The position numbers and the translations under genes are program-made. Of a stretch of 53,703 nt of DNA, positions 30,261 to 45,525 are shown piece after piece. Under the pieces are notes generated by a model. That model saw nothing but the letters and a program-made list of their open reading frames with translations. It did not search any database and was not told the DNA's origin. The DNA is taken from positions 1 to 53,703 of the forward strand of contig JAFQED010000054.1 of the NCBI GenBank assembly GCA_017415765.1, written 5' to 3'. Within the stretch, counting starts at the first letter, position 1. Every line of letters begins with the position of its first letter. The DNA comes from Desulfovibrio sp. Its GTDB lineage: Bacteria > Desulfobacterota > Desulfovibrionia > Desulfovibrionales > Desulfovibrionaceae.

Positions 30261-30291
30261 ATTTGCCATACGCTGAAAACGTATGGCAAAT
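30261..30291. promoter_or_regulatory. Perfect 12-bp inverted repeat upstream of the DsbA-like gene
   Basis: ATTTGCCATACG and CGTATGGCAAAT flank the loop CTGAAAA. There is no T-run after it, so it may be an operator or a 5'-leader hairpin. A weaker stem ACTCC/GGAGT with TTTTT follows at about 30340-30363, which would suit attenuation. The stretch 30127-30417 contains no gene. Confidence 0.5.
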
Positions 30292-30417
30292 AGCTTGCAG
30301 CAAAAAGGGCCAGAAGGCCGAGAACAAGACTTACCCCTCACTCCTTGCAACAGGGAGTTTTTCGGGCTAAGAAGTGTATGTCCTATGGGAAAAGCAATTT
30401 GCAAACATGAGGTAGAT

Positions 30418-31212
30418 ATGAATAACATGTTTAAATCATTGATAATAATGGCAGCCATAACACTGTTCTACTGGGGGCAGCCCACACAGGCAAACGCCCA
30501 GGGGCTGACGGAACGTGATTTGCCAGCCGTGCTGGAAAAGATCCTGCAAGAGCATCCTGAGCTTGTTTTGGATGTGCTGCGGCAAAACAGCGAAGCTGTA
30601 CTGGATATTGCCCAGCAGGGTTCCAATGTGCGCCGCAAACGCAACCTTGAAGCCCAGTGGAAACAGGATATGAAAACGCCGAAAAAGGTTGCCCTGGAGG
30701 ACAGGCCGGTACTGGGCAATGCGGGAGCCAAGGTAAGGATAGTCGCATTTTCTGATTTTACCTGCCATTTTTGCCGTCAGGCCTCGCAATCCCTCACAGG
30801 CTTGCTGAACCAGTATGGCAAGGATGTCAGCCTTGTTTTCAAGCATTTCCCCATGGATGAGGATGGCATCTCTGCCAGGGCCTCACGCTACTTTATTGCC
30901 ATTGGTATGCAGGACGCAGCCAAGGCCTGGCAGTTCCATGACATTCTTTTTGCCCAGCGGGATGCCCTGCTTGGCCAGGGGGATGCCTTTCTCAAGAAAA
31001 CTGCCGAGGGCCTTGGCGTGGACATGAAGCGTCTGAACAAGGATCTGCGCAGCAGAAAGGTAAGCACCATCCTTGCAGAGGACATCAAGGATGCCCAGGC
31101 CCTTGGCGTGGAAGGCACACCGCATTTTCTGGTCAACGACCTCGTTGTGCGTGGAGCCTTGCCAGCGGACTTGTTCAAGGCTGCCATAGATATGGCTCGC
31201 AAGGGCAAATAG
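30418..31212 (+). CDS. Periplasmic DsbA-like thiol-disulfide oxidoreductase
   Basis: A 264-residue exported thioredoxin-fold protein of the DsbA/Com1 group. The signal peptide ends about PTQANA (27). A helical N-terminal region (30-95) precedes the thioredoxin-like domain. The active site CHFC (116-119) sits in FSDFTCHFCRQA, and the cis-Pro loop is GTPHFLVN. It probably forms or isomerises disulfides in periplasmic proteins; with many c-type cytochromes nearby, a role in heme-site Cys handling is possible but unproven. The frame is open 45 codons upstream; GAGGT just before ATG 30418 decides the start. A strong terminator follows. Confidence 0.88.
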   Translation: MNNMFKSLIIMAAITLFYWGQPTQANAQGLTERDLPAVLEKILQEHPELVLDVLRQNSEAVLDIAQQGSNVRRKRNLEAQWKQDMKTPKKVALEDRPVLGNAGAKVRIVAFSDFTCHFCRQASQSLTGLLNQYGKDVSLVFKHFPMDEDGISARASRYFIAIGMQDAAKAWQFHDILFAQRDALLGQGDAFLKKTAEGLGVDMKRLNKDLRSRKVSTILAEDIKDAQALGVEGTPHFLVNDLVVRGALPADLFKAAIDMARKGK

Positions 31213-34831: not shown

Positions 34832-34935
34832 AAGAGCCTCCTTCATAGCTCCCCTCGCGGCTGTCCCCATGACAGCCACCAAAGCAGTAGTTTGTGAATC
34901 AAAAAACATGCCAAGATTGGTTACAGCAAAAAAAC

Positions 34936-34951: not shown

Positions 34952-35050
34952 AAATGCCGTATCTGGTAGCCATGGCAGAGTTAGGGCTTGCCTTTTTCCG
35001 AAAAAAAGGACAAAAAATCATAAAAAAATGACATTTTGTGCGGGGAAGGC

Positions 35051-37411
35051 ATGACAAAACCGACACATTGGCGCGGCGTCCGCATCTGGGGCTTGCCGGC
35101 ACTGGCCTGTATCCTCTGGCTGGGCTTTGTGGCTGCCCTTTATGGCAATGCGGCAGAACTGGCCGTGGCGCATCGGCTGGAGCTGGAACACACCCGCCTT
35201 TCCACAGTGGCGCGGCAGACCATGGATGCCCGTAACTGGAATGCCGCACACGGTGGCGTTTTTGTGCTGCAAAGTGAATACGGCCAGCCCAACCCCTGGC
35301 TGCCGGAGGCAGAACGCACCGTCACCACCACGGATGGGCTGACCCTGGTGCGGATGAACCCTGCCTATATGAGCCGTCAACTGGCAGAACGCTCTTCCTG
35401 GCCGGGTGTGCGTATCGCCATTATCAGCAAGCAGCCCCTGCGACAGAACAATCACTCCGACCTGTGGGAAACACGCGCCCTGGATGACTGCATGCTGGGA
35501 GCGCAGGAAGTCTTCAGCCCGCCAGAGCAAACGGACGACAACAGTCTGCGCTTACTGTCCGTACTTGTTGCCCAGCCCTCCTGTCTGCGTTGCCATACGG
35601 GAAGCAGGGAGGGCGATGTGCTGGGCGGCATCAGCATCAGTCAGGACGCCACCGGCTTTACACTGGACATAGAACGCCACCTTGCCAACCTGCGCATGTT
35701 CCACGGCCTGTTGGGGCTGACCGGCGTGCTGGCCGTTGGCGGGCTGACCCTCAACCTCAGCCGCCGCCGCTGGAAGGCCGAGGAGACCAGCCGCATGAAA
35801 AGTGCCTTCATGGCACGGCTCAGTCACGATATGCGGACGCCGCTCATGGCCATCAACGGCATGGGCGAGTTGCTGCGTGACGGACAGTGCAGCCCGGAAG
35901 AAAGAGACCGCGCCCTACGCTACCTGCTGCACGCGGGCGATACCCTGCTGGAAATGGTCAACGACATCACTGACCACGGCTCGCTGGAACAGGGCAGTAT
36001 CCAGCTTCGGGAGCGGGATTTCAGCCTGGGCCAGTGTATCAGCCAGTGTATGGAGATCTACCAGCCAGCCATTACAGCCAAGGAGCTGGATTTCGGCCTC
36101 GTCATCGCGCCGGATGCCGTGGACAGTCTGCACGGGGATGATTTTCGCCTGCGCCAGGCCCTGGGTAACCTTGTCAGCAATGCGGTGAAGTTTACGGACA
36201 GGGGCGGCATTGCGGTCAGGGCCGCCACCCGGCCCTGCAAGCTGCCCCGTCCCGGCCGTCTGGAACTGAGCATCACCGTGGAGGACAGCGGGCCGGGCCT
36301 GGAACCGGGCGAGATCCGGCACATTTTCGACAGCTTCGAGCGGGGCGCACAGGCTGTGCGTCAGCCCGGCACAGGCCTGGGCCTGAATATCGCCCGTACC
36401 ATTGCCCGTCGGATGGGCGGGGATGTGCGCGTGCAGCCCCGTGAGGGCGGCGGTTCTGTCTTTGTTCTGACAGTCCTCGTGCGCGAGGGGCAGGACGGCA
36501 CAGCTGCAACGGGCAGCCCACAGGGCAAGGCCAGCCCCCACACCGCCAGCCAGCTGCACGGCAAACGTATCCTCATTGCGGAAGACAATGCCGCCAGCCG
36601 TTACTATCTGGCACAGGCTCTGCGCAAGGCGGGCTGCAAGACCCTGCTGCTGGAAGATGGCCGGGCAGCCCTGACAGCCATGCGCGAACAGCAGCACAGC
36701 CACCAGTGGGATCTTGTCCTGCTGGATGTCAATATGCCGCACGGCAGCGGGCTGGATGTCCTGCGGGAGATACGCCACGGCAGGACGCTTTTGCCTGCTG
36801 ACCAGAAAGTGGCCCTGTACACTGCGGCACTGGACGAGGATGCGCGGCTGGCCTGCAAGGGATTGCAGCCGGATGCCGTCATCATCAAACCACTGGATTT
36901 TGCCAGCCTCAGCCAGCGTCTGGCCCTGCTGATGGATACCAGCACCGGCAACGCGCCGGACACTGCCACAGCTGATGCGCCAAGCCAGACGGCACAGGAG
37001 CTGCCTATGCCGCCAAAGCCCGATGCCCTGCCTGTCTGGGATGTGTCAGCCGCTCTGGCGGCCATGGACGGGGACAGGGAGATTTTTGTACGATTGCTTG
37101 CGGTCTTACAGCAGGATCTGCTGCGGATGCGGGAGGAGCTGGCGACTGCCCTCGCGCCTGCAGGCGGGCCGGATGCTACAGGCAGCGTGCGCCGACTGGC
37201 CCATGCCTGCAAGAATTCTGCTGGCACCATGCGGCTGGATCGTCTGCACGCCGTGGCTGCCCTTGCTGAAAAGGCAGAGCAGCAACATCTGCCACAGGCC
37301 GGGCAGGAACTGCTGGCCGCCATCACGCAAGCCTTAGACCTACTTGCAGAACATACAGAGGGGACGCCCCGGCCAGAAGGAGGGACTGATGGCACGGATC
37401 CTGGTCATTGA
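35051..37411 (+). CDS. Hybrid histidine kinase with periplasmic heme-binding-type sensor
   Basis: A 786-residue membrane sensor. Order: membrane helix 1 (about 12-33); periplasmic domain ending in a CxxCH heme motif, CLRCH (178-182), resembling the DUF3365/Tll0287-like heme sensor; helix 2 (about 216-236); HisKA with His259 (RLSHDMRTPL); HATPase (NAVKFTD, DSGPG, GTGLGLNIA); receiver with Asp559 (LVLLDVNMPHG); and a C-terminal Hpt domain with His718 (LAHACKNSAGT). It is thus a complete phosphorelay in one chain. It sits divergent from nrfHA and overlaps the response-regulator gene by 23 bases, so sensing nitrite, NO or redox state for nrf control is likely but inferred. ATG 35051 is chosen over an upstream TTG. 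Confidence 0.9.
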   Translation: MTKPTHWRGVRIWGLPALACILWLGFVAALYGNAAELAVAHRLELEHTRLSTVARQTMDARNWNAAHGGVFVLQSEYGQPNPWLPEAERTVTTTDGLTLVRMNPAYMSRQLAERSSWPGVRIAIISKQPLRQNNHSDLWETRALDDCMLGAQEVFSPPEQTDDNSLRLLSVLVAQPSCLRCHTGSREGDVLGGISISQDATGFTLDIERHLANLRMFHGLLGLTGVLAVGGLTLNLSRRRWKAEETSRMKSAFMARLSHDMRTPLMAINGMGELLRDGQCSPEERDRALRYLLHAGDTLLEMVNDITDHGSLEQGSIQLRERDFSLGQCISQCMEIYQPAITAKELDFGLVIAPDAVDSLHGDDFRLRQALGNLVSNAVKFTDRGGIAVRAATRPCKLPRPGRLELSITVEDSGPGLEPGEIRHIFDSFERGAQAVRQPGTGLGLNIARTIARRMGGDVRVQPREGGGSVFVLTVLVREGQDGTAATGSPQGKASPHTASQLHGKRILIAEDNAASRYYLAQALRKAGCKTLLLEDGRAALTAMREQQHSHQWDLVLLDVNMPHGSGLDVLREIRHGRTLLPADQKVALYTAALDEDARLACKGLQPDAVIIKPLDFASLSQRLALLMDTSTGNAPDTATADAPSQTAQELPMPPKPDALPVWDVSAALAAMDGDREIFVRLLAVLQQDLLRMREELATALAPAGGPDATGSVRRLAHACKNSAGTMRLDRLHAVAALAEKAEQQHLPQAGQELLAAITQALDLLAEHTEGTPRPEGGTDGTDPGH

Positions 37412-38801
37412 TGATGAAGGCCTGATGCGGACGATGGTGGAGGTGGTCTGCAACCGCATGGGGCATCAGCCCCTGTGTGCTGCAAATCTGGCTGACGGGA
37501 TGCGCCTGGCCAGGACCGGTGTGGACGTGGTTTTGCTGGATGTTTGTCTGCCGGACGGCAATGGGCTGGAACATCAGCGCGAGTTTGCGGAACTGCCCTC
37601 GGAACCGGATATGGTCATCATCACCGGCCACGGCGATGGCGACACGGCCGAGGCCGCATTGCGCTCTGGCGCGTGGGAGTTCCTCACCAAGCCCCTGCAG
37701 ATCCGCGATGTGGAGCAATGTCTGCGCCATGTGCTGGCCTATCGGCATGAGCGGCAGCGCAACACGGCCCGGCTTACGGTGGACAGCGGGCATATCCTTG
37801 GCACAGGGCCAGCCATGTCGCAGGTGCTGAAACTTCTGGCACAGGCGGCGCAGAGTGAGGTCAATGTCCTGCTGCTGGGCGAGACCGGCGTGGGCAAGGA
37901 GCTTTTTGCCAAGGCACTCTACCGCAACAGCAGCCGTGCAGCCCAGCCCTTTGTGACCGTGGACTGCGCTTCCCTGCCGGAAAATCTGGTGGAAAGCCAT
38001 TTGTTCGGGCACAGCCGTGGGGCCTTCACCGGGGCAGACAGGGCACGCGAAGGCTTGTTGCTGGCCGCCCACAGGGGGACGCTCTTTCTGGATGAAGTGG
38101 GCGATCTGCCCCTGCCCATGCAGGGGGCTTTCTTGCGCGCGCTGGAGCTGCGGCGTTTTCGGCCCGTGGGTGAAGTGCGGGAGCTGGACAGCGATTTTCG
38201 GCTTGTGGCAGCAACCAACCGTGACCTTGAGGAAATGGTGCAGCAGGAGAGGTTTCGGGGAGACCTGCTCTACCGCCTGCAGGGCATCACCATCACCATC
38301 CCCCCCCTGCGCCAGCGACAGGATGAGATCGCCCCCATTGCCCAGCAGACCATTGCTCGTTATTGCCTCCAGCACGCCCTGCCCCGCAAGTCCCTGAGCG
38401 ATACCGCCCTGGAAATGCTGCAAACCTACGCCTGGCCCGGCAATGTGCGGGAACTTGTCCATGCCATGGAACGGGCCTGTCTGGCCGCAGGTCATGCCGA
38501 GATCCTTTTGCCGGCGCACCTGCCCACCCAGATGCGCGTGAGTGTGGCCCGCCACCGCGTGGGACAGGGACGGGAGCAGACAGTCTTTTCTGCTGCCTTG
38601 CCGGAACAGGGCAACCTTGACAGGCAGGACAGCGAGAATGCCCTGCCCGGTCTGCGGGAATGGAAGGCCCGCGCCGAGGCTGACTATGTGCGGCGGGTCA
38701 TGCACGAGAGCGGGGGGGATGCCCGACAGGCCGCCAGCATTGCGGGGATCTCTCGCGGGCATTGGTATGAGCTGCTCAAGCGGCACGATATGGTGCCATA
38801 G
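37389..38801 (+). CDS. Sigma-54-dependent response regulator, partner of the heme kinase
   Basis: A 470-residue NtrC-type regulator with an intact receiver: acidic Asp8-Asp9, phospho-acceptor Asp51 in VVLLDVCLPDG, switch Lys in FLTKPL. The AAA+ domain has Walker A GETGVGKE, GAFTGA in RGAFTGAD and Walker B TLFLDEVGDL. A Fis-like helix-turn-helix closes the protein (DARQAASIAGISRGHWYELLKRH). AAGGAGG stands before ATG 37389, which lies within the end of the kinase gene, so the two are coupled. Likely target: the nrfHA operon, by neighbourhood; I found no clean TGGCAC-N5-TTGC site there. Confidence 0.93.
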   Translation: MARILVIDDEGLMRTMVEVVCNRMGHQPLCAANLADGMRLARTGVDVVLLDVCLPDGNGLEHQREFAELPSEPDMVIITGHGDGDTAEAALRSGAWEFLTKPLQIRDVEQCLRHVLAYRHERQRNTARLTVDSGHILGTGPAMSQVLKLLAQAAQSEVNVLLLGETGVGKELFAKALYRNSSRAAQPFVTVDCASLPENLVESHLFGHSRGAFTGADRAREGLLLAAHRGTLFLDEVGDLPLPMQGAFLRALELRRFRPVGEVRELDSDFRLVAATNRDLEEMVQQERFRGDLLYRLQGITITIPPLRQRQDEIAPIAQQTIARYCLQHALPRKSLSDTALEMLQTYAWPGNVRELVHAMERACLAAGHAEILLPAHLPTQMRVSVARHRVGQGREQTVFSAALPEQGNLDRQDSENALPGLREWKARAEADYVRRVMHESGGDARQAASIAGISRGHWYELLKRHDMVP

Positions 38802-40263: not shown

Positions 40264-43200
40264 TTATAATGCTAGTTCTAATTTTTTTATCATCTTATTT
40301 ATCGGTGCAAGCCGTTCATCTATTTTGTCTTGAACTTCTTGAGGGAATAATACAATATCTGTCCATCCGAAAAAATTCTCCCCGAACTCTATCGTATCAT
40401 CCCATTTACTTACCACATTATATAAGCTAGCAAGAATTGCTCCGCTGACTGATAAATCACCAAGATCATCAAATGCAAATGCATCAACGGCTATAGAACT
40501 AGCATTATATATAACAGAACCTATAAATCCATACTTTTCTTTTATTTGTAAATCTTTATCAATGCTGTCACATGCTTCTCCTGAAAGATATTGCGCTCCT
40601 ATACTATAGGCAATTGACAGTTTATAAATCTCAAGCATTTTTATAGTATTTTCTATGCTGTAGTTTTGTTGTGAATTATATAATGTAATAAACTCATTAT
40701 AAGCTTGCTTTGACTTTTCAAAATATGTATTTGCCATTACTGCAGAAAAAATACCTGCATTTGTTGAATAATCTAAAGTATTGTCAATAATAATTTTTGC
40801 AGCACCAATTGCCCCGCTAAAAGGATCCGATGTTATTAGTTCAATAGCAGACCCTAGAAAAGTAGCCACACCATTTTTGAAGCGTTCTGCATGAAGATAT
40901 GTTGTATTTATATCTGAAAAGCTATCATTGAGACTAATAAGTGCAGGTCCAGTGTGTTCTATTATAAAACCACCCAATGCATTGTGAATATTGATAACAG
41001 CATCTTCTGATAGTATTGTATTTGTATTTAATAAATTATCAGAATTTATGTCTGGGTATGATCTGATCATATTTATATTATTATTCTTATCAAGGTAAAT
41101 TGTATCATAAGCATCTGCATATATTTTATTGCTAATGATATTAAATTTGTCTCTATTGGTGCTGGATGTAGCCCCTATAGAGCCTCCCCCTATACCAGAA
41201 GCATCCCCCGCAGGTGGAACCGGAATTTCAGGAGCGACTGTAGTAAAAATTTTGAGTTTTGGATAAGATTTTCCCTCATCAATAGTCCATGTATTTGTAA
41301 AATCCCACCCTGTATAATTTGATGCTTGCATCATTTGACTTGTTGTTCGGGCAAGAGCACCACCTACGCTATAGTTTGAGTTTGCTGCATACTTGTCAAA
41401 GAAGCAATTCTCAAAACCTCTTACTGCAATACCTTTGTCAACACAAAATCCAGCTTCATTGGTTCTTGATGGGACACGCCCAACACTATATGAATTGACA
41501 ATCCGCGGAGCGCTAGTGCCATCTACTAATGCCGTAAAACTTCCTAAGTACTCTGAGTCAGAATATAATTTTGTTATATCAACATCTGCAAAGCAATTAA
41601 CAATTGAATTTGTCCAGGCACTATCATTGCTGTTACCACCATATACCCTGCCAACAAATCCACCAGAGTATCTATGTGCTGTAAGGTTCCCGGTTACATA
41701 ACAATTTTTTATTTCTGCTGTATATGCACATCCCACCAATCCACCGGCTTGTGAATATCCGACAAAAGATACATTATTCAAGCCCAGATTGCTGATGCGA
41801 GCCCCGCTCCGCGTTATGCCAAACAGCCCTACATGGTCTTCCGTGGGTCTGTTTATCGTAAGATTATTTATAACATGGCCTAAACCATTGAATACACCAG
41901 CAAAATATACGCCTCTGCCCGAGACGATCCTGTCAAAATATCCCCCCAAGGGACAAAATCCCTTTCCATCATTCCAATTTTTTGTATCAGTGGCATCTAT
42001 ATCTGAGCCAAGTGCATAATATCCATTTAACTTCCACTCATCTGTAGATTTATCAATAGCAGATTTATTTATATCCTGAAGCTGTTCTATGGTGTTGATA
42101 ACAGTATATTTCTTTCCATCCATGACCAGGGTTGGATTTTCCCCGGACAAGGTAATTTTTGCCCGAAAATTTATATCTCCATTTTTCGCGTTCAGCCATA
42201 ATCCAGCGTTATCATGGGTAGCTGTGATTGTTTTATTTATATCTATATTCTTATAGGCATTTAAGGTAAGTGTTGCCGCAGATGTCCAAATAATATCATC
42301 ATTTACATATACGCTGCCGCCATCACTGGTAAAAACCATATTGTTCTCTGCAAGCAATGTAGAAATAACATCACCGGTGACATTGCCGCCGCTTTCCGCT
42401 ATGACAAAATCCACCGGGTCAAGCAGCCATTCCCCAAACAGGCCCTTGGGCGCAAGAGTACTCACCCGCGCAGTATCGCCAATCTTCAGGCTTTTGCCGG
42501 AGGTTTCCACCTGCCCGCCGTTGCCGCCCTCGCTGCCACCCTTGGCGGTAACTGTTCCGTCAAAGGTCGTTGTTTCGTCACTCCACACAACGACCTGACC
42601 GCCGTCCCCCTTTACTTTGGCATCGGCATGGATGACAGCCCGTTTTTCCACATTGGTTGTCCGGGCATTACGTTCCGGCCCCTTGCCAAGGGCATTGCCG
42701 CCCACAAGTACTGTGCCGCCGCCGCTATTGCCGGAGGCGTCAATTTTAGCACCATCCTTCAGGGCTATATCCCTGCCCGTCAGCGTCACCTTACCGCCTT
42801 TCTTCCCGCCAGTAGCTGTAATGGAGCCGGAGGAGCTTACTTTACCGTCCGTGTCCATACGCACGCTGCCAGCATCGGCAACGGCAGATGACACATCCAG
42901 CATACCAGTGTTGCTGATGTCCACCCCGGAACCCTGGCCCTTAAAGGTAATCATGCCGCCCGCAATTTCTGCAGAAGCAGCGGAAACCTCCCCACTGTTG
43001 ACCACAGAACCCACAATGCCATCCAGCTGCGCGGCAGTCAGCACCACCACGCCGCCTTCGGCCTTGATGGAGCCGTTGTTGGCAACACTGGCAAGGGGTT
43101 TGCCATCGGCCCCGTGCAGGCTGTTGACGGCCTTCTCATCCAGCGTAAAGGTAATCAGGTCATCCCCGTGCATATCCAGCGACCATGCGGCATCAGCCGA

Positions 43201-43773
43201 AGCCAGGGCTACCTTGCCAAGTTTGGCCGCAATCAGACCTTCATTACGCACAGAAGGGGCCACGAGTGCAGCAAGGCCGCTTTCCCTGACCGTGATCTCG
43301 CCCTGATTGATGACTTGGGCACCAGCAAGCCCTGGCTTGTCAAAGACCATCTTGCCGTTCATAAAATTGCTGTTGCTGATGTCCCGGCTTGTGGCCACAA
43401 AGCCATTGGTATCGATCCGCGCCCCCTTGTGGATGACCACACCAGCAGGATTGACCAGATAGATATTGCCATTGGATTGCAGTAACCCTTCAATCTGGCT
43501 GGCACCACCACCGCCCACCACGCGGTGCAGGGCTGCGGAACTTGAGGAAGGCATATTGTGCCGGACGGCTTCATGTTTGGCGATGTCAAAAGAGTGCCAG
43601 TTGATGACTGCCCGGTCGCTACTCTGATTGATGGTGGTATTTGCGCCGGACTGTTGGATGCTGGCACTGCCCCCCACCACCTTGCCACCCTGTGGAGCTG
43701 CCCAAACTATGGAAGGAGCAAAAATCAGGCTAAGGCAAAGACTCAACACAAGGGATTCTCTGATGCTGTTCAT
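40264..43773 (-). CDS. Two-partner secretion exoprotein (TpsA), filamentous-haemagglutinin-like adhesin
   Basis: A 1169-residue secreted beta-helix protein. Signal peptide to about residue 26 (APSIVWA); TPS domain (27-250) with QSSDRAVINWHSFDI, a conserved NPAG (108-111) and GARID; then beta-helix repeats and WLLDPVDFVI (about 450). A GLUG-repeat region follows (about 610-770; GVFNGLGHVINNLTI, GGLVGCAYTAEIKNCYVTG, GGFVGRVYGG). The last 380 residues are not beta-helical and unrecognised, with alternating hydrophobic helices. Base composition changes sharply: DNA for about residues 1-465 is GC-rich like the genome, the rest is strikingly AT-rich, suggesting a mosaic. tpsB lies upstream by 48 bp on the same strand, and TpsB exports TpsA. 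No immunity-like gene follows, so a contact-toxin role is unsupported. Confidence 0.9.
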   Translation of the reverse strand: MNSIRESLVLSLCLSLIFAPSIVWAAPQGGKVVGGSASIQQSGANTTINQSSDRAVINWHSFDIAKHEAVRHNMPSSSSAALHRVVGGGGASQIEGLLQSNGNIYLVNPAGVVIHKGARIDTNGFVATSRDISNSNFMNGKMVFDKPGLAGAQVINQGEITVRESGLAALVAPSVRNEGLIAAKLGKVALASADAAWSLDMHGDDLITFTLDEKAVNSLHGADGKPLASVANNGSIKAEGGVVVLTAAQLDGIVGSVVNSGEVSAASAEIAGGMITFKGQGSGVDISNTGMLDVSSAVADAGSVRMDTDGKVSSSGSITATGGKKGGKVTLTGRDIALKDGAKIDASGNSGGGTVLVGGNALGKGPERNARTTNVEKRAVIHADAKVKGDGGQVVVWSDETTTFDGTVTAKGGSEGGNGGQVETSGKSLKIGDTARVSTLAPKGLFGEWLLDPVDFVIAESGGNVTGDVISTLLAENNMVFTSDGGSVYVNDDIIWTSAATLTLNAYKNIDINKTITATHDNAGLWLNAKNGDINFRAKITLSGENPTLVMDGKKYTVINTIEQLQDINKSAIDKSTDEWKLNGYYALGSDIDATDTKNWNDGKGFCPLGGYFDRIVSGRGVYFAGVFNGLGHVINNLTINRPTEDHVGLFGITRSGARISNLGLNNVSFVGYSQAGGLVGCAYTAEIKNCYVTGNLTAHRYSGGFVGRVYGGNSNDSAWTNSIVNCFADVDITKLYSDSEYLGSFTALVDGTSAPRIVNSYSVGRVPSRTNEAGFCVDKGIAVRGFENCFFDKYAANSNYSVGGALARTTSQMMQASNYTGWDFTNTWTIDEGKSYPKLKIFTTVAPEIPVPPAGDASGIGGGSIGATSSTNRDKFNIISNKIYADAYDTIYLDKNNNINMIRSYPDINSDNLLNTNTILSEDAVINIHNALGGFIIEHTGPALISLNDSFSDINTTYLHAERFKNGVATFLGSAIELITSDPFSGAIGAAKIIIDNTLDYSTNAGIFSAVMANTYFEKSKQAYNEFITLYNSQQNYSIENTIKMLEIYKLSIAYSIGAQYLSGEACDSIDKDLQIKEKYGFIGSVIYNASSIAVDAFAFDDLGDLSVSGAILASLYNVVSKWDDTIEFGENFFGWTDIVLFPQEVQDKIDERLAPINKMIKKLELAL

Positions 43774-43821
43774 ACTGCAACTCTCTTGTAACAGAGGTTC
43801 TATGCTCTACCCGGCAAGGGG

Positions 43822-45525
43822 CTAAAAAAACACGCCAAACTGCACGACAAAGCGGGGGCTGTCCCCAGCGTTATCACCAGCCCGTTCCAGGGGCTGGCCG
43901 ACAAAAGCCGTTATGTTAAAATCGGGGAAGCGTTCATCGCCCAGATGCCCCCACAGGCGGACACCACCGCCCACAGACGAGGCATCCTGCGTATCAGGCA
44001 CTCCCCATACACTTCTGCTTGTCCAGACGGTTCCCCAGTCCACAAAGGCAAACAGTTGCACTGCCGCCTTATCTGTCAGGTAATGCGTCCAACGTGGTTC
44101 AAGAGTGGCGGCAAAACCGTTGTCACCTTCGATGATACCGGGTTCATAACCGCGCCCGAAACGTGAGCCGCCCAGAAAAAATTTGTTGTACGAGGCCAGG
44201 GACTTGTCCGCAAACTGTGCTTCTGCTGCCGTGAACAGACTGAATTTATGCGGCAGTTGCTGATCACGCGAAGCATAGATGCCAAACTTCCAGAATTCGG
44301 CAGGAGCCAGAGAGTTGGAGGCAGTAAAATCCTTGTCCGTAGCGTCAAAAACCTTCAGGCCTCGTGACAGGGTGGGAATAACTTGCGTTACCCCGCCCAG
44401 ACTGTCGGAAAAGTCAAAATTTGCATGGGTGCTCAGCGTTCGCAGCCTGTCCTTGGTGAACCGTTCAGCAAAAATATAGGAATCACTGTTCCTGTGCTCG
44501 TAGTTCAGCCCCAAACTCAAATTTATATCGCGGCTTCGGATGACCGGGTAGGAGGCCCCCAGATTAAAGGTATTGCTTTTGGTCGTATAGTCAAAAAGCC
44601 GGGCAAATTCCGTATCCATTTCCGGGCTGTCACTGTAGGCGTAGGAGGCACTGAAACTCAGGCCATTCCACATCTGGTAGCTTTGGGAGATTTGCAACGA
44701 CCAGTATTCCTGATGCTGGTTGGCCTGTGAATAGTTGAGTGTTGTTCTGGCACCAATTACCGGGAGTGTGTTGAGCCCCAGACTGGCAGAAGCGATGCCG
44801 GGGCCGGAAGCCTCTGTGCCGGTATTGCCCCAACCAAGGCTGGCATCCGCAAAATCGCCCTGCACATCCAGCACAAGAATGGATGCCCCTGCTGCCGTAC
44901 CCTTTTGAAAGCGGGAGGCTACCTCTATGCCCGGCACATCCTGCATCAGGAGCATACAGCGTTCAAAAAGGCCGTGCCGGAGCGGCTTTTTGCCCACAAG
45001 CCGCTTTTCCATCGGAGCAAAATAGTTTTTGAAGCGTTCAAGGATGCGGCTGTCACCCGTGTACTGGATGGATTCAATAAAACCCTCCACCACCAGCAAA
45101 CGAATGCTCGCCCCTGCCTGTTCCACCTGCTGCTCAGGAATGATGACGCGGGAAAGCAGGTATCCGGCATCCCGATATTTTTTGGTCAGCTCCGCTGTGA
45201 TGGCATAAAGCTGTGCCAGACTGATACGCTGACCAAACTGGTTGTTGTAAGGGGCCAGCAGTTCTTCTTCCGAAAATGCTGTCGCGCCGACAATGTGGAG
45301 CGAGCGAAGGGTAAATTGCGCTGCCGCTCCTGCACCAGTAGGTGCGCCGTCCTCACTAATACGGATTTTGGGTTGGGAGCGAGGTGCAGGCAGACTTTGG
45401 TCGCGCTGCCTGTCCAGAATATCCAAGGTGCTGGCAGCAAAAGCAAAGCCTTGCGGAAAAATCACAACTACCGTAAATATAAGGAGAATATAAATCAGAA
45501 AGCCTGATCCTGCTAATACTCTCAT
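43822..45525 (-). CDS. Two-partner secretion outer-membrane transporter (TpsB, ShlB/FhaC family)
   Basis: A 567-residue Omp85-superfamily barrel that secretes its TpsA partner. Signal peptide (1-30, ending FAFAAS); POTRA domains (about 70-215; FTLRSLHIVGATAFSEEEL, RDAGYLLSRVIIPEQQV); then a 16-strand barrel. The conserved loop-6 tip motif (V/F)RGY appears as RFGRGYEPG (about residue 453). It ends in VVQFGVFF with the terminal aromatic expected of barrel proteins. It is transcribed first in tpsB-tpsA, so partner order is the normal one. The start at ATG 45525 precedes a plausible signal peptide. The 757-bp spacer upstream should hold its promoter. Confidence 0.93.
   Translation of the reverse strand: MRVLAGSGFLIYILLIFTVVVIFPQGFAFAASTLDILDRQRDQSLPAPRSQPKIRISEDGAPTGAGAAAQFTLRSLHIVGATAFSEEELLAPYNNQFGQRISLAQLYAITAELTKKYRDAGYLLSRVIIPEQQVEQAGASIRLLVVEGFIESIQYTGDSRILERFKNYFAPMEKRLVGKKPLRHGLFERCMLLMQDVPGIEVASRFQKGTAAGASILVLDVQGDFADASLGWGNTGTEASGPGIASASLGLNTLPVIGARTTLNYSQANQHQEYWSLQISQSYQMWNGLSFSASYAYSDSPEMDTEFARLFDYTTKSNTFNLGASYPVIRSRDINLSLGLNYEHRNSDSYIFAERFTKDRLRTLSTHANFDFSDSLGGVTQVIPTLSRGLKVFDATDKDFTASNSLAPAEFWKFGIYASRDQQLPHKFSLFTAAEAQFADKSLASYNKFFLGGSRFGRGYEPGIIEGDNGFAATLEPRWTHYLTDKAAVQLFAFVDWGTVWTSRSVWGVPDTQDASSVGGGVRLWGHLGDERFPDFNITAFVGQPLERAGDNAGDSPRFVVQFGVFF

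Follow-up and report, generated by a model that had tools for sequence, protein, structure and literature searches.

A NrfSR-type phosphorelay with a predicted heme-c Cache sensor lies divergent from nrfHA in a Desulfovibrio genome

What does the sensor kinase encoded opposite the nitrite reductase genes of Desulfovibrio detect, and which operons does it govern? In D. vulgaris, the NrfSR pair is described as activating nrfHA under nitrite stress (PMC5701242, PMC6456213, PMC3333781, PMC12285233). A 2017 paper called the signal of NrfS as yet unrevealed and suggested nitrite (PMC5701242), and a 2025 review lists nitrite as that signal (PMC12285233). We analysed a candidate pair in a 53,703-nucleotide stretch of DNA (the window) from a 2.10-Mb Desulfovibrio sp. 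genome of 74 contigs that is 91% complete.

A preliminary description had placed a periplasmic sensor with CxxCH, HisKA, receiver and Hpt domains in one chain, its gene overlapping that of a sigma-54 regulator and facing the nitrite reductase operon. Open reading frames and Pfam matches bear out each of these points (Table 1). In the Pfam scan, which numbered the kinase from an upstream TTG (five additional residues), E-values were 2.1e-13 for HisKA, 2.9e-25 for HATPase, 2.1e-16 for the receiver and 8.7e-6 for Hpt. The HATPase domain and a known sensor family are additions to the earlier domain list. The regulator ATG lies before the kinase stop codon, and the two genes therefore overlap by 23 bp. 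By Pfam the regulator has a receiver and a sigma-54 activator domain (PF00158, E 5.5e-63), and its sequence contains GAFTGA, as expected of an NtrC-type sigma-54 activator. The open reading frame list puts nrfHA on the minus strand, divergent from both genes. NrfH scores 100.5 bits against TIGR03153, under the cut-off of 134.2, and the NCBIfam NrfA models match NrfA below their cut-offs. The best PDB match of NrfA is 1oah, followed by 2vr0/2j7a, which we take to be the enzymes of D. desulfuricans 27774 and D. vulgaris.

Table 1. Positions of genes, domains and putative regulatory sites in the window
Feature	Position	Strand	Details
NrfS-type hybrid sensor kinase	35051..37411	+	ATG 35051, TGA 37411, 786 aa
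Periplasmic Tll0287-like (sCache_heme) sensor	35144..35695	+	about residues 32-215
CLRCH heme-c attachment motif (predicted)	35582..35596	+	residues 178-182, within periplasmic domain
HisKA + HATPase, phospho-acceptor His259 (35825-35827)	35795..36478	+	Pfam; His in 28/28 kinases
Receiver domain, Asp559	36569..36922	+	Pfam; Asp in 27/28 kinases, the 28th ends at contig edge
Hpt domain, His718	37094..37345	+	Pfam, 26.3 bits vs cut-off 24.6; His in 27/28, the 28th cut
NrfR-type sigma-54-dependent response regulator	37389..38801	+	470 aa, ORF from ATG 37389; REC + AAA+ with GAFTGA
nrfH, tetraheme quinol dehydrogenase	34831 (ATG) to 34364	-	PF03264, E 6.1e-17
nrfA, nitrite reductase	34371-32806	-	4 CxxCH + CxxCK; PF02335, E 8e-124, above Pfam cut-off
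Sigma-54 -24/-12-like element, TGGCATGTTTTTTGAT	34898..34913	-	toward nrfH, 66 bp before ATG
NrfR-like operator 1, TGTCATTTTTTTATGA	35018..35033	-	operator matrix + genome pattern search
NrfR-like operator 2, TGTCCTTTTTTTCGGA	34997..35012	-	21 bp from operator 1

The -24/-12-like element of the window has 10 of 12 consensus letters, a score reached by 4 of 200 shuffled sequences. Loci with a divergent kinase form a set of 21, comprising 20 of 80 fetched nrfA loci plus the window, and in every one such an element points toward nrfH with 9 to 12 of the 12 letters, although the scores are individually weak (at any one locus, between 0 and 15 of 200 shuffled sequences do as well). These loci also carry TGTC-N9-TGA operator-like sites upstream of nrfH, usually two and 19-21 bp apart. 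The sigma-54-like element and the operator occur together at 21/21 loci with nrfSR, as opposed to 0/46 without; the 46 comprise 3 that reach the sigma-54 threshold and 2 that reach the operator threshold (L058, 14.6; L086, 18.4). The L086 genome carries such a kinase and regulator on a different contig (L269). Of 81 loci, the window among them and the other 80 fetched, 14 were dropped (L034, L099-L111) because they lacked either an NrfH of 100 bits or 420 bp of upstream sequence; the rest give 67 readable nrfHA promoters.

The 21 loci themselves served to train the operator matrix, which makes held-out and added loci the fairer tests. A matrix trained on the window's genus only finds a site in 6/6 loci of other genera; none of 500 shuffles reaches the score in five of them and one of 500 does so in L085, where the top site is not the canonical one. 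The full matrix scores at least 20.1 in 6/6 added loci, and the sigma-54 score there is at least 9 in four and 8 in two (L118, L119). By eye, the window sites (GTC-N10-GA(C) type) resemble the LurR sites printed in PMC6456213, a comparison confined to those sites rather than the NrfR consensus; the same source describes LurR sites as also bound by NrfR. Judged by architecture, position, operators and promoter, the pair is NrfSR. The novelty with which it was initially presented does not hold, since NrfSR is a known activator of nrfHA in D. vulgaris.

To follow the linkage among relatives, a profile of 18 NrfS sensors was run over 297 Desulfovibrionales genomes at E 1e-60 or better, a limit set post hoc, after a phylum-wide search, that keeps the stronger matches only. 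It yielded 55 places in 54 genomes. Thirty-five, with sensor scores of 289 bits or more, are divergent from nrfHA, within about 3 kb of an nrfA place; 21 of these were read, the window included, and 14 judged from coordinates alone, the adjacent regulator being read in neither the 14 nor L077, where the contig ends first. At nine places the kinase-regulator pair is divergent from an operon of a NapC-like tetraheme gene and an octaheme (HAO-like) gene. Three lie beside nap: one is divergent from napCMA, and two lie 1.7 and 3.9 kb downstream of napA, in the same orientation. One (L269) is on a contig with no upstream sequence to read. At the remaining seven, the 10-18 kb read shows neither an adjacent sigma-54 regulator nor any gene for NrfA, NapA or an octaheme protein nearby. 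Conservation of the kinase-nrf linkage, raised in the preliminary description, is thus real in relatives (35 of 55 sensor places) and not universal, 46 of 67 readable nrfHA promoters having no adjacent nrfSR.

A further idea, that nitrogen-oxide genes accompany every Tll0287 kinase, was rejected because none of the seven close matches without a regulator has such neighbours. Thirty other Tll0287 loci gave no NrfA, NrfH or NapA match, a weak control as these loci span only about 3.5 kb. Among 80 named sensor relatives, NrfA matches occur in 8 loci, all within the NrfS group; NapA-type matches outside that group are L146 (383 bits), L184 (162), L155 (105) and L162 (47). D. piger ATCC 29098 (L117) and Desulfovibrio sp. 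A2 (L121) are among the named loci linked to nrf, and D. cuneatus (L120, by its length the same contig as L265) and L118 are linked to nap. Some named loci apparently repeat fetched ones (L113/L049, L115/L056, L116/L038, L117/L042, L122/L085, L123/L269).

The sensor is flanked by two membrane helices (about residues 12-31 and 216-234) and matches the Tll0287-like family PF11845 with E 7.9e-10 and 39.8 bits against a curated cut-off of 24.1, a partial match covering profile positions 32-110 of 144. Its structural model has a Cache-type fold with a CxxCH insert, and GSU0935 and GSU0582 are among the fold matches. It scores 364.4 bits against the NrfS profile, of which it is itself a part. Two alignments were used: A1, whose 18 rows are the window and 17 of the 20 NrfS sensors fetched, and A2, whose 79 rows are the window and 78 of 80 named loci. 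C178, C181 and H182 are invariant in A2, where no other Cys is invariant or nearly so. CxxCH is kept in 28/28 kinases, and exactly one is present in 42/42 of a second, overlapping set, so the motif is hardly there by chance. Family, fold and motif conservation together make a covalent c-type heme, as originally predicted, the best reading of this domain. A phmmer search of the PDB with the single window sensor gave no match; the 79-row profile matched Tll0287 at E 0.00052, plus one NrfA at chance level. Sensor-profile matches occur in 181 of 395 genomes of the phylum, and the family is common in other settings, so that the presence of an sCache_heme domain is not by itself a sign of nitrogen oxides.

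The relay residues are conserved as well. Besides the conservation given in Table 1, all 13 kinases with an adjacent regulator in a further set (window included) keep His259, Asp559 and His718. The receiver Asp and Walker Lys are present in 38/38 aligned regulators, of which 32 have an exact GAFTGA. Among the seven kinases of that further set without an adjacent regulator, the Asp is kept in two and the Hpt His in one. We count as new here the invariance of heme and relay residues in readable regulator-paired kinases.

Might NrfR act beyond nrfHA? The pattern TGTCWNNTTTTTNTGA has two exact matches in the window's genome, in the nrfH promoter and in that of a napC-napM-napA cluster, where it is followed by a second site and TGGTACAAGAATTGCT. 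One-mismatch matches look like background (9 genome-wide vs 6 for the reversed pattern). On these operator sites, nap is a predicted second NrfR target in this genome, as it is in D. desulfuricans, in which nrfHA is called divergent (PMC5701242, PMC3333781, PMC6456213). Operators learned from nrf recur before most nap operons examined; the L276 nap promoter has no good one (8.7, reached by 3 of 200 shuffles).

The same matrix finds operator-like sites in 9/9 octaheme promoters, with scores of 14.7-25.3 that none of 200 shuffles reaches, and all nine also carry a sigma-54-like element toward the operon. The weakest operator is that of L276 (14.7), the other eight scoring 18.2-25.3; the nine loci come from two genera only and are not independent. 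A tenth kinase-octaheme pair, in the named locus L133 (Pseudodesulfovibrio), has both elements as well. 'HAO-like' is a loose family label, as the four octaheme proteins scanned all match PF13447 and the best NCBIfam match of the L133 protein, hydrazine dehydrogenase, reaches 74.7 bits where 900 are required. This census of sensor linkage, and the nrf-learned operators before octaheme and most nap operons, are new here.

A midpoint-rooted tree was built from 42 kinases, of which 23 are labelled nrf, 10 hao, 4 nap and 5 none (L114, L120, L123, L125, L269, L279, L280 and named duplicates left out). Its partner labels need 6 changes where 3 is the minimum possible (nrf 4, hao 2, nap 3, none 1). 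It therefore looks as if the kinases swapped partner operons and yet each retained exactly one CxxCH.

The sequence itself shows the order of the domains, the heme motif, the relay residues, sites resembling operators, an element resembling a promoter, and the conserved linkage. On this basis we consider it probable that NrfSR is a phosphorelay in which a heme-c Cache sensor is switched by a nitrogen oxide and which drives nrfHA through NrfR and sigma-54. NrfS would sit in the inner membrane, with a single heme c covalently bound at CLRCH in its periplasmic Cache domain. Either NO, or nitrite at the heme, would alter the heme state and turn the kinase on, and phosphate would pass from His259 through Asp559 and His718 to Asp51 of NrfR. 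NrfR on two tandem operators would then open the nrfHA promoter with sigma-54; the nap promoter in this genome is very probably opened likewise. We infer the attachment of the heme, NO or nitrite as its ligand, the direction of the response and the route of the phosphate.

The choice of signal deserves closer weighing. That one heme sensor module stands before three unrelated nitrogen-oxide reductases favors a shared nitrite or NO signal. Nitrite and NO are plausibly common to the nrf, nap and octaheme settings despite their different substrates: NO is described as a by-product of nitrite reduction (PMC5701242), and the substrate of the octaheme enzyme is a presumption. A nitrogen-oxide signal is therefore favored over an enzyme-specific one. 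NrfS might instead be a redox sensor, with nitrite oxidizing the periplasmic cytochrome pool and the reduction state of the heme, with Met107 on or off the iron, setting the kinase. Met107, invariant in the 79 sensors of A2, could be the distal ligand, which would fit redox sensing, and GSU0582 and GSU0935 have been called spin-state sensors linked to redox, Met60 being the distal ligand in GSU0935 (PMC8396549). However, both proteins also bind NO according to the same source, and the regulator-paired kinase tracks nitrogen-oxide reductases. Nor can sequence place the distal ligand, or Met107 relative to the heme, because the alignment to Tll0287 spans only the C-terminal part of that protein, GSU0935 is not matched by the sensor sequence search of the PDB, and the model contains no heme. 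We regard redox sensing as somewhat unlikely.

Direct binding of nitrite or nitrate as an anion in the Cache pocket, with the heme structural or secondary, appears less likely still. Cache domains generally bind small ligands (PMC12889525), the NarX/NarQ sensor domains bind nitrate or nitrite (PMC12285233), and Arg61 and Trp63 are invariant in A2, as is Asn64 in the 18 NrfS-type sensors of A1, although an anion site there would be a guess. This reading sits poorly with a heme motif in 42/42 kinases and, in another set, in 7/7 not linked to nitrogen oxides. A CxxCH without heme, as a relic or a metal or disulfide site, is very improbable: the motif is strictly conserved, maturation-type genes are present, and heme c has been measured in proteins of the family (PMC12889525, PMC8396549). 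Within the favored nitrogen-oxide reading, the preference for NO over nitrite or redox state is an analogy drawn entirely from family biochemistry. A wider proposal, that NrfS and its relatives are periplasmic heme-c NO sensors whose module moved repeatedly among NrfA, Nap and an octaheme HAO-like enzyme, is one we hold tentatively and give slightly short of an even chance. If true, respiration and detoxification of nitrogen oxides in Desulfovibrionales would share periplasmic NO as their signal.

Joining NrfS to heme-c Cache chemistry yields a specific, testable nitrite/NO sensor in Desulfovibrionales, D. piger included, and predicts a similar mode of control for an octaheme HAO-like operon. 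The sensor identity and the target range make the open question of the NrfS signal directly testable. Among the literature matches listed, none joins NrfS with the sCache_heme domain or NrfR with an octaheme target.

The system had been set apart from NarXL/NarQP, and it does follow another logic, with a hybrid phosphorelay and a sigma-54 output. NarX and NarQ are defined by a PilJ-type sensor and HAMP, and a Pfam scan of the window kinase at E 0.01 found neither. To our knowledge, NarX-NarL and NarQ-NarP have a different sensor, no heme, no hybrid relay and no sigma-54 output. What they share with NrfSR is control of nrf and nap by a membrane kinase, exerted there upon nitrate or nitrite (PMC12285233).

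With the sCache_heme / DUF3365 / Tll0287-like family (PF11845), the window sensor shares fold, CxxCH, periplasmic position and fusion to signalling modules. Tll0287 itself has an axial Cys (Cys/His heme ligation), whereas the 79 sensors of A2 lack a conserved one. A 2026 preprint on the family describes covalent heme c and, in a signalling member, slow NO release (PMC12889525); the words Nrf, nitrite and Desulfovibrio are absent from its text. GSU0935/GSU0582 and DcrA are likewise periplasmic heme-c sensors, but they are chemoreceptors rather than kinases and are discussed as redox or oxygen sensors (PMC8396549).

The closest counterpart is NrfS-NrfR of D. vulgaris Hildenborough (NrfR = DVU0621, nrfHA = DVU0624-0625), a genome not recovered through NrfA in searches of 8 and 288 genomes (best match 79% identity). 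DVU0621 is listed as a GAFTGA regulator of DVU0624-0625 (PMC4641369). There, as in the window, a sigma-54 regulator lies near nrfHA, with 16-bp operators upstream of nrfHA (PMC5701242, PMC3333781, PMC6456213), and the cited passages show no difference between the two pairs and give no description of the NrfS sensor domain. The window system is a member of the known NrfSR, real and well conserved.

The nrfHA promoter of one relative (locus L086) has no adjoining nrfSR, yet carries a good operator-like site, with a score of 18.4 against a matrix of NrfR-like operators trained on nrfSR-linked nrfHA promoters. The same genome (G267) encodes the kinase and regulator on a different contig (locus L269), and it is possible that this pair controls the L086 nrfHA genes at a distance.

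Some of the genes around nrfSR and nrfHA in the window are listed below. A Pfam scan of the 93-aa open frame returned no matches; the frame looks like the end portion of a PD-(D/E)XK transposase-like protein. In the secretion pair, a ShlB/FhaC-type transporter accompanies an exoprotein of 1169 aa that contains both a TPS domain and a GLUG motif. On the nrfA side, the DsbA/thioredoxin-family protein might be of use to periplasmic cytochromes.

Genes flanking the nrf region in the window
Feature	Position	Strand	Location
DsbA/thioredoxin-family protein	30283-31212	+	~1.6 kb from nrfA end
ORF, 93 aa	38823-39104	+	directly 3' of nrfR
Two-partner secretion pair	40264-45525	-	near nrfR

The window's genome contains a further Tll0287-like domain (G000:C59:7044-7532, locus L202), which lies within a 1060-aa open frame.

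The contig of L118 is named Betaproteobacteria, but in a tree of 42 kinases its kinase nests among those of Desulfovibrionaceae; the probable explanation is transfer or mis-binning of the contig. In G087:C8, G097:C1 and G112, the open frame of nrfS or nrfA is either short or interrupted, reflecting decay or assembly error.

An NrfSR-type kinase-regulator pair adjoins nap genes at five loci (L265, L266, L270, L276 and L277); at the last two, it is flanked by an octaheme operon (NapC-like/HAO-like genes) on one side and a nap operon on the other.
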